A stretch of 52,258 nt of DNA, taken from NCBI GenBank assembly GCA_947630055.1, contig CANRGA010000006.1, positions 1 through 52,258 on the forward strand. Reading direction: 5' to 3'. Positions 1-37,783 of this stretch are shown here, one piece after another (position 1 is the stretch's first letter; the number at the start of each line of letters is the position of its first letter). The notes below the pieces were generated by a model, which was given only the letters and a program-made list of their open reading frames with translations, made no database searches and was not told the DNA's origin. Source of the DNA: an uncultured Bacilli bacterium. GTDB taxonomy: Bacteria; Bacillota_I; Bacilli_A; RF39; UBA660. A program made the translations under genes and the position numbers.

Positions 1-4
1 ACAT
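1..4 (-). CDS. Start of a leftward gene cut by the window edge
   Basis: Read on the minus strand, positions 20 to 10 give AGAAAGGATG, a good ribosome-binding site, followed after a short spacer by ATG at positions 4-2. Only the start codon and one more base lie inside the window, so the product is unknown. If real, the gene is divergent from surface protein A. Confidence 0.3.
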
Positions 5-25
5 AAAATCACATCCTTTCTAATA

Positions 26-58
26 GTACCATTTTTAAACCCCGAATAAAAGTGGTAC
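26..58. repeat. 11-bp inverted repeat between divergent genes
   Basis: Arms at 26-36 and 48-58 (GTACCATTTTT and AAAAGTGGTAC) pair over 11 bp with one G-T wobble around an 11-base loop. There is no T-run on either side, so it does not look like a terminator. It could be an operator, or a hairpin in the leader of the leftward gene. Function is unassigned. Confidence 0.45.
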
Positions 59-85
59 AAAAATATTGTAAACTGCCTTGAAAAA

Positions 86-125
86 TCTTGACTCTCGGGG
101 GGGGTATTATATAATAATCTTATAA
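86..125 (+). promoter_or_regulatory. G8-spacer promoter of surface protein A (likely phase-variable)
   Basis: The -35 TTGACT (88-93) and -10 TATAAT (110-115) are separated by 16 bp that contain eight consecutive G (97-104). The 40 bp at 86-125 are identical to 37702-37741 upstream of surface protein B. Homopolymers in promoter spacers are a known substrate for slipped-strand mispairing, which changes spacer length and therefore expression. G8 gives 16 bp and G9 would give the optimal 17 bp. The promoter elements are seen directly; phase variation is inferred. Confidence 0.8.
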
Positions 126-7521: not shown

Positions 7522-8228
7522 CTTTAGAAAAATTATATGAACAATATGAAGAATTAAAAAAACAAAAAGAAAACATTAACAATCAAATTAAAACTATTGA
7601 AAAACAAATTGAAGATAATGAAAAAAATGTTTTTCATCCTAAGTGGGGAAATTTGGAAGAGTGGGAATATATTCCAAAAAATATAAAAAAAGTAATTGTT
7701 GGTACATTTCCATCACAAAAAGTTTGTAATTCAGAAAAAGTAGACGAAGGCTTTTTTTATGAATCAGATAAAAATGATTTTTGGGATTTTTTTGATTTAA
7801 AAGGTAAAAGTAAAACAGAGAAAATATCATGGTGCAAAAATAATCATGTTGGCTTTTTAGATATAATAAAACAATGTAAAAGATTTGGAAATTTAAAAAA
7901 TTCAGAATTAATATATGATTCATATGATTGTAATTTGATTGATGTTAAAATTACTAATTTAAATAGTATTAATGAAAATGTTTTAATAATTTGCACAAGT
8001 TTAGATGAAACCTATGGCCCATTAAATTATTTAAAAAAATTGGGAGAGATAAGTTATGATAACAATTTAGGAAAAAATATAAAAAATGGAAATTTGAAAA
8101 TTGGCAATAAAAATTTAAAATTTGTAGCTTTACCTTCTCCTTCTCGTTTAAATCGAAAATATAATAGCAAAGAAGTTGTAGAGAAAGCTTATAAAACATA
8201 TATTTTGGGAAGTGATAAAAATGCATGA
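7518..8228 (+). CDS. Uracil-DNA-glycosylase-superfamily-like protein with N-terminal coiled coil
   Basis: The 236-residue protein begins with a Lys/Glu/Gln coiled coil (about 1-35). The core shows IVGTFPS (60-66), an aromatic FWDFF (88-92) and LPSPSRLNR (205-213), which together resemble motifs 1 and 2 of the UDG/MUG fold. The usual catalytic Asp/Asn of motif 1 is not obvious, so a repair activity is uncertain. The coding DNA is unusually rich in A-runs. It overlaps lepB by 4 bases and rbgA by 8, so it is embedded in the operon, at a place where most Firmicutes have lepB and rbgA adjacent. It may be a lineage-specific insertion. Confidence 0.55.
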   Translation: MTLEKLYEQYEELKKQKENINNQIKTIEKQIEDNEKNVFHPKWGNLEEWEYIPKNIKKVIVGTFPSQKVCNSEKVDEGFFYESDKNDFWDFFDLKGKSKTEKISWCKNNHVGFLDIIKQCKRFGNLKNSELIYDSYDCNLIDVKITNLNSINENVLIICTSLDETYGPLNYLKKLGEISYDNNLGKNIKNGNLKIGNKNLKFVALPSPSRLNRKYNSKEVVEKAYKTYILGSDKNA

Positions 8229-9072
8229 AAATAAAACCAATATTAATTGGTATCCAGGTCATATGGCTAAAACTAAAAGATTAATAAGTGATGAACTTAA
8301 AAATATTGATATAGTATATGAAGTAGTTGATGCCCGGATACCTTATTCTAGTAAAATAAAAGATATAGATAATTTAATTAAAAGTAAACAAAGAATTTTA
8401 ATTATGACTAAAAAAGATTTATGTGATATAAGTGTTACTAATAAGTGGGCAAAATATTATGAAAATAAAGGCTATAATGTTATAATTGCCGATTTAAAGG
8501 AAAATCAAGATTATAAGAAAATAATTGATTTAACTCATCAAATTACTAAAGATATTCAAGAAAAAAGATTAGCAAAAGGTTTAAAAGAAAAAGAAATAAG
8601 AGCTTTAGTAATTGGTATACCTAATGTTGGTAAAAGTACTTTAATTAATAGAATAACAGGTAAAAAAGCGGCTAGTGTGGAAAACAGACCGGGAGTTACT
8701 AAGAATTTAAATTATTTGAAAACAAATGCTGGAATTACTTTACTTGATACTCCAGGCATATTATGGCCAAAGTTAGATGAGGAAAAGGTTGCATTAAATA
8801 TTGCCTCTACTGGTGGTATTAAAAAAGAAGTGTTAAATTTAGATGAAATATGTCTCCATATCTTAAATTTTTTATATGAAAATTATCCGAATATTTTAAT
8901 GGAAAAATATGGTATAAATGATAATGATCCAATGATAATGTATGAAATTATTGCAAAAAAAATTGGGGCAATTAAAAATAATGAAATTGATTATGACAAA
9001 GTAAGTGAAAAAGTGTATAATGATTTAGTGGGGGAAAAAATCAAAGGAGTAACATTAGATAAATGGCAGTAG
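8221..9072 (+). CDS. rbgA: Ribosome biogenesis GTPase RbgA (YlqF)
   Basis: The circularly permuted GTPase drives a late step of 50S assembly. It opens with the hallmark INWYPGHMAK, then the motifs run in permuted order: G4 TKKD (63-66), G1 GIPNVGKST (132-140), G3 DTPG (176-179). The C-terminal RNA-binding helical domain follows. The ATG at 8221 is used because GGAAG lies about 9 bases upstream and the family normally begins just before this motif; the upstream GTG at 8212 is less likely. The last 10 bases overlap rnhB. Confidence 0.93.
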   Translation: MHENKTNINWYPGHMAKTKRLISDELKNIDIVYEVVDARIPYSSKIKDIDNLIKSKQRILIMTKKDLCDISVTNKWAKYYENKGYNVIIADLKENQDYKKIIDLTHQITKDIQEKRLAKGLKEKEIRALVIGIPNVGKSTLINRITGKKAASVENRPGVTKNLNYLKTNAGITLLDTPGILWPKLDEEKVALNIASTGGIKKEVLNLDEICLHILNFLYENYPNILMEKYGINDNDPMIMYEIIAKKIGAIKNNEIDYDKVSEKVYNDLVGEKIKGVTLDKWQ

Positions 9073-37701: not shown

Positions 37702-37741
37702 TCTTGACTCTCGGGGGGGGTATTATATAATAATCTTATAA
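37702..37741 (+). promoter_or_regulatory. G8-spacer promoter of surface protein B (likely phase-variable)
   Basis: TTGACT (37704-37709), 16-bp spacer with G8 (37713-37720), TATAAT (37726-37731). All 40 bases are identical to 86-125, although sequence on both sides differs. Exact conservation of a promoter with a mutable tract between paralogues 37 kb apart points to recent duplication, gene conversion or strong selection. Confidence 0.8.
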
Positions 37742-37783
37742 AATAAAGTGCAATGATACGACATATAAAGAGAGGATAAGATT

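Follow-up and report, generated by a model that had tools for sequence, protein, structure and literature searches.

Poly-G promoter spacers upstream of surface-protein genes in an uncultured gut Bacilli bacterium and their likely role in phase variation

Two identical promoters in the genome of an uncultured Bacilli bacterium, each carrying a run of eight G between its hexamers, precede two paralogous surface-protein genes. This raises the question of whether these genes are switched by slippage in the G tract. The window, which is the whole stretch of DNA analysed (52,258 nucleotides), corresponds to contig C6 in a genome of 1.19 Mb that is assembled into 60 contigs. Both sites likely belong to a set of phase-variable promoters that spans the genome and is switched by slippage; the support for this reading is strong but indirect, and is based on neither reads nor strains nor expression data.

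Window promoters and the proteins encoded behind them

Both promoters have the structure TTGACT-CTC-G8-TATTA-TATAAT (88-115 and 37704-37731) with a spacer of 16 bp each, and all window features given here are on the forward strand. Promoter 1 consists of the -35 hexamer TTGACT (88-93), which recurs in the promoter block genome-wide, the G8 tract (97-104) within the spacer (94-109) and the -10 hexamer TATAAT (110-115). It is followed by a putative ribosome-binding site AGGAGAG (131-137), inferred from its position before the ATG at 145, and by the gene of surface protein P0001 (145-1551, 468 aa). In promoter 2, the -35 hexamer TTGACT (37704-37709), the G8 tract (37713-37720; spacer 37710-37725) and the -10 hexamer TATAAT (37726-37731) precede an inferred ribosome-binding site GAGAGG (37770-37775) and the gene of surface protein P0002 (37784-39112, 442 aa). 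The 40-bp blocks at 86-125 and 37702-37741 are identical. A homopolymer located between -35 and -10 is one criterion for a promoter of the porA type, and it is met.

The heptamer GGGGGGG matches in the window solely within the two G8 runs; 0.14 matches are expected per shuffled window and none of 100 dinucleotide shuffles of the window reached 4 matches. An earlier note, made without database searches, had placed G8 between TTGACT and TATAAT with a 16-bp spacer, had reported the same 40 bp at 37702-37741 before the paralogue, had judged an eight-G run very unlikely by chance and had seen no third copy in the window. These statements held: every coordinate was confirmed, the block identity is exact and the shuffles agree with the chance estimate.

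P0001 comprises an N-terminal membrane helix, a small beta domain and a C-terminal DUF6273-related domain. P0001 and P0002 are paralogous, membrane-anchored and 64% identical. No Pfam or NCBIfam family scored above cut-off for either protein; both are tied to DUF6273 via a protein encoded on contig C28. A fold search gave a single significant PDB match, 9qa6 (T. ramosa IgA peptidase, E=8e-6), with a TM of 0.34, and matches to C-type lectins were non-significant; hence, no function was assigned from this search. Between promoter and start codon, the leader AAAGTGCAATGATACGACATATAAAGAGAGG is conserved (window 37745-37775 and most other copies), and it is partly common to paralogues lacking a poly-G promoter.

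The promoter set in the genome and in relatives

The suggested genome search for further genes behind the same 40-mer was performed with BLAST, and the block matches 29 places. The exact pattern TTGAC-G-TATAAT is found in 22 of these (21 with G8, one with G6 on C26), and a spacer of 18 bp was counted in three of the 29 (C28, C35:4152 and C4:60717). A second layout, TTGACT plus 10 nt plus G8 plus TATACT or TATAAT (spacer 18 bp), precedes three tandem genes on C5 and one gene on C35. In total, the genome has at least 33 poly-G promoters and one coding G8 (C5), i.e., at least 34 tracts, which is a lower bound since the end letters of the scan pattern miss a few sites. The mention of two promoters in the earlier note was therefore an undercount. 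G8 is present in 33 of the 34 tracts and the G6 on C26 is the sole one of the 33 promoters to differ. Except for isolated G6 runs, all listed runs of G ≥ 6 in the genome belong to the promoter and coding set. Within the genome, a 30-bp block TCGGGGGGGGTATTATATAATAATCTTATA is conserved among the promoters, and conservation among the copies extends to the leader and N-terminal sequences. Several poly-G promoters run into contig ends. The contig start of the window (1-77) is itself an assembly fork, caused by either a repeat or strain variation.

Thirteen promoters, including those of P0001 and P0002, drive one family of ~450 aa with an N-terminal membrane helix, and seven drive a second family of ~500 aa with a signal-like N-terminus. 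Two more (C28 and C18) precede larger proteins related to the first family, of which that on C28 carries DUF6273. The remaining promoters lie before a DltA-like AMP-binding enzyme (ligase), an acyltransferase-3 protein, secreted InlB-type repeat proteins and another secreted protein. About 20 of the poly-G-driven genes encode paralogous surface proteins. The products are thus membrane-anchored or secreted proteins and surface-modification enzymes, and the criterion that genes behind such promoters encode surface-exposed products is met, with exposure itself being inferred. In relatives, 43 of 45 tested poly-G genes are homologues of P0001.

Some paralogues have no poly-G tract. Those without one in the promoter (L036, L037, L039, L040, L041 and L044) often have a divergent upstream gene resembling a helix-turn-helix regulator. 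Two control modes might exist in one family, a tentative suggestion inferred from sequence alone.

Of the 385 genomes of the same family (order), which represent 117 genera, 91 genomes from 40 genera carry TTGAC..G≥7..TATAAT; a reversed-pattern control over those 385 genomes gave zero matches. Most of the 37 genomes of the same genus hold several G≥7 tracts. Nearly all block matches with a name are MAGs named "uncultured Bacilli bacterium" that bear the label Lapin (rabbit). No strains of the window species were found by a strict pattern scan of genome contigs. Of 92 G≥7 tracts of the same genus, 65 lie inside the spacer of a strong -35/-10 pair; among 25 tracts from other families of the class, none does.

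From 36 of the 91 genomes, 134 promoters were listed, with tracts of G7-G16, spacers mostly of 15-20 bp, a left flank of 0-9 nt and a right flank of 0-10 nt. Tract placement ranges from flush with the -35 to flush with the -10 hexamer (layouts 0+8, 2+5, 3+5, 5+3 and 10+0 nt), and the flanks are unrelated between the 40 genera. This range of placement together with unrelated flanks is easier to reconcile with a mutable spacer than with a fixed operator. In two genomes (G302 and G349), tracts of G12-16 directly adjoin TATAAT and are of unequal length between copies within one genome. Promoter anatomy, copy number, restriction to surface-related genes and recurrence across genera with unrelated flanks are directly shown by these comparisons.

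A 17-bp spacer is the usual optimum for σ70 promoters. Among the poly-G promoters of many genomes, it is rarer than 16 or 18-19 bp: 9 of the 134 promoters have a spacer of 17 bp, 33 have 16 bp, 28 have 18 bp and 32 have 19 bp; in our own count, the window genome has none at 17 bp. This tally is descriptive, as the sites are related and the -10 hexamers were called by consensus. If it is real, most copies sit beside the 17-bp optimum.

Tract length, coding tracts and a retroelement

When two promoters of one genome agreed in 25 flanking bases, their tract lengths were unequal in 132 of 269 pairs (eight rabbit-gut genomes); same-flank pairs from the promoters listed for other genera were unequal in 32 of 64 cases. 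As an example, CANQIY has ten G9, eleven G8 and one G7. Identical-flank pairs within one genome are not independent events. A further criterion of the porA type, i.e., different tract length in near-identical promoters, is met in related genomes; in the window genome it rests on one of 33 promoters only. The divergence in tract length of otherwise identical promoters in related genomes is a direct observation, as are the out-of-frame coding tracts described below.

In the window genome, class-A sites differ in tract length at 0.083 compared to 0.098 per flanking base, i.e., there is no excess. With near-uniform tracts, hypermutability is not shown there, and G8 is short for a hypermutable tract, which counts against the slippage reading. 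Uniform G8 may reflect real stability, selection for the 16-bp spacer or assembly collapse of near-identical repeats, and these alternatives are not separable here; the assembly may possibly have homogenised the tracts. As the leader nearby is conserved too, recent duplication accounts for part of the block identity. The earlier note had named uniform G8 in all deep read sets and strains as a refuting outcome; in the assemblies, the window genome is near-uniform (33/34), and related genomes vary (132/269 pairs). Of 38 genomes, 34 have MutS and 34 have MutL, and the window genome has both. Loss of mismatch repair as a cause of slippage was therefore rejected, and slippage should be dampened. 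Compensation of tract length by flank length gave a weak signal (p=0.07; for the set of 134 promoters shuffle p=0.04, Spearman not significant) and is not claimed.

The same type of tract occurs within reading frames. At C5:2178 (L044), a G8 close to the start codon is followed by a stop after 19 codons, another frame is open for ~690 codons, and G9 would restore a single frame. In the congener G019, the four examined paralogues (L111, L116, L121 and L131) have G9 and reach a stop codon after 29 codons; a different frame is open for ~250 codons, and G8 would join the frames. G019 holds more tracts of the same sequence, which were not translated; the counts cover the four only. The criterion for a coding contingency locus, a 5' homopolymer with a long downstream frame out of phase, is met for C5:2178 and the four G019 paralogues. 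Retention of open frames behind broken ones argues that tract length shifts back and forth.

On C43, a poly-G-driven surface gene is followed by a template repeat, a MutS-I-like ORF, an Avd-like ORF and a reverse transcriptase (RT). The MutS-like, Avd and RT genes of this element (L279, L029) reach down to ~5930. Profile matches are RVT_1, bAvd-like below its cut-off and a MutS_I-like ORF. Over 112 nt, the template (8137-8248) differs from the variable region (8454-8565) at 22 positions, and 22/22 mismatches are at template adenines. The criterion for a diversity-generating retroelement (DGR) which targets a poly-G-driven gene is met. Further RT/Avd/MutS-like sets are present on C28 and C3 (16.4-18.2 kb); a template repeat for C28 was looked for and not found. 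On C3:14540-18240, a template-like repeat occurs in four tandem copies (L280:41, 504, 1062 and 1526) that lack a long reading frame and adjoin genes of the MutS-like, Avd and RT types; this may be a multi-template retroelement that serves the second surface family.

The C-terminal region of P0002 (38949-39030) resembles a DGR variable region and diverges from the C43 template preferentially at adenines (changed at 18 of 28 A sites compared to 13 of 54 other sites, p=0.0005; upstream control p=1). The C-terminal region of P0001 alignable to this template (1358-1471) shows only a weak adenine bias (p=0.03; upstream control p=0.88). Thus, the window genes have adenine-biased divergence from the C43 template only, without a matching template repeat. 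In rabbit relatives, an RT directly downstream of poly-G genes (within 3.5 kb) was found in 0 of 34 cases; hence, coupling of poly-G promoters and a retroelement is shown in the window genome only.

Interpretation and comparison with known systems

In the proposed mechanism, RNA polymerase with the housekeeping sigma factor would read TTGACT and TATAAT. Much of the spacer consists of the poly-G tract, where slipped-strand mispairing at replication would add or remove one G. The spacer would move among ~15, 16 and 17 bp, and transcription of that one surface protein would go up or down. Since each paralogue has its own tract, different surface combinations could arise among cells of one clone; for a few genes, a tract of the same type inside the reading frame would act as an on/off frameshift switch. 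By analogy with porA and tp0126, G8 (16 bp) is predicted to be intermediate, G9 (17 bp) strong, G7 (15 bp) weak and the G6 on C26 (14 bp) off. Slippage as the cause, useful rates within populations and the effect of 1 bp on transcription are all inferred; such a 1-bp effect is known for porA and tp0126, and an influence of tract length on transcription is described for tprL as well. The slippage switch by spacer change which the earlier note had proposed is supported indirectly; neither switching nor read-level mixtures nor transcription was observed.

The G tract could instead be a fixed motif, i.e., an activator or repressor site for a surface regulon with constrained length. Near-uniform G8, the conserved 30-bp block in the window genome and the fact that every target is surface-related speak for it. 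However, the distance of the tract from the -10 and -35 hexamers changes by up to 9-10 bp from one architecture to another, the flanks in different genera are unrelated, same-flank promoters vary in tract length and the same tract is also found within reading frames; a fixed motif is thus very unlikely. We regard it as even less probable that the tract is a roleless, frozen by-product of duplication, carried along when block and gene family spread together. The conserved leader and N-terminal sequences in the window genome would fit recent spread, but G8 is also found in distinct promoters of unrelated genes (DltA-like ligase, acyltransferase, InlB-repeat proteins) and poly-G spacers persist in 40 genera despite diverged flanks.

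As a further alternative, identical blocks could recombine, site-specifically or homologously, and switch expression by shuffling promoters, without slippage. The block coincides with the end of many contigs. C27 shares a 77-bp overlap with C44, and the first 76 bases of C6 and C16 are the same before the two contigs continue into different poly-G surface genes; these contig-end overlaps of 77 and 76 bp imply branching of the assembly graph at the blocks or immediately upstream of them. However, short-read assembly is expected to break at repeats of such length, and most paralogues have an intact block of their own, so no promoter needs to move. Shuffling is therefore also considered very unlikely, although invertases were not scanned for.

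Slippage in the promoter set remains the preferred reading, and a bolder version is possible but less likely than not: surface diversification in two layers across the family of small-genome gut Bacilli. Tens of poly-G promoters would mostly have a spacer of 16 or 18-19 bp, beside the 17-bp optimum, leaving most paralogues weak at any given moment and one slip from strong, and DGRs would rewrite the lectin-like C-termini of the same proteins. Poly-G spacer switches are a textbook feature of a few pathogens with one to several loci each. The presence of 20-40 poly-G promoters per 1.2-Mb genome in uncultured gut Bacilli, together with the spread of this architecture over 40 genera, points to slippage-driven surface variation as a major strategy among ordinary gut residents. 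The promoter set also offers an extensive natural experiment on the tuning of promoters by spacer length, and coupling of poly-G tracts and a retroelement would unite two diversification mechanisms in one cell.

The likeness to known phase-variable surface antigens which the earlier note had proposed held, with porA, tp0126 and vlp as precedents. The mechanism is already known from these; new are the lineage, the scale and the retroelement as a second layer. In Neisseria meningitidis, porA has poly-G in the σ70 spacer of a surface-protein gene and one-base steps alter its expression (PMC3639595, PMC2791445); compared to 11G, expression is 2.2-fold lower at 10G and 13-fold lower at 9G (PMC3639595). 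In contrast to this one locus with G9-G11 in a Gram-negative pathogen, at least 30 loci per genome with a G8 mode are present in uncultured gut Bacilli, with the effect unmeasured. Treponema pallidum has several poly-G promoters of surface genes (tp0126, tprL, tprE/G/J); the tp0126 tract lies between -35 and -10, its promoter is optimal at a 17-bp spacer and the tprL tract varies between 7 and 11 G (PMC7864442). Unlike here, these are outer-membrane proteins of a spirochaete with fewer loci and no common promoter cassette on such a scale.

Mycoplasma hyorhinis vlp and M. mycoides vmm are surface families in which each member has its own variable-repeat promoter, with poly-A in vlp and a dinucleotide repeat in the spacer in vmm (PMC10502178). 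They differ in repeat base and scale, and the vlp and vmm families are smaller. Pilus clusters of Bifidobacterium breve, a gut commensal, use poly-G slippage for surface structures and resemble the coding tracts of C5 and G019 (PMC9187656); there, the G tract lies in the coding sequence and not in a promoter. DGRs of Faecalibacterium prophages share RT, Avd, changes between template and variable region only at template A, and DUF6273 variable proteins (PMC11792537), whereas in the window genome the target gene is also located behind a poly-G promoter.
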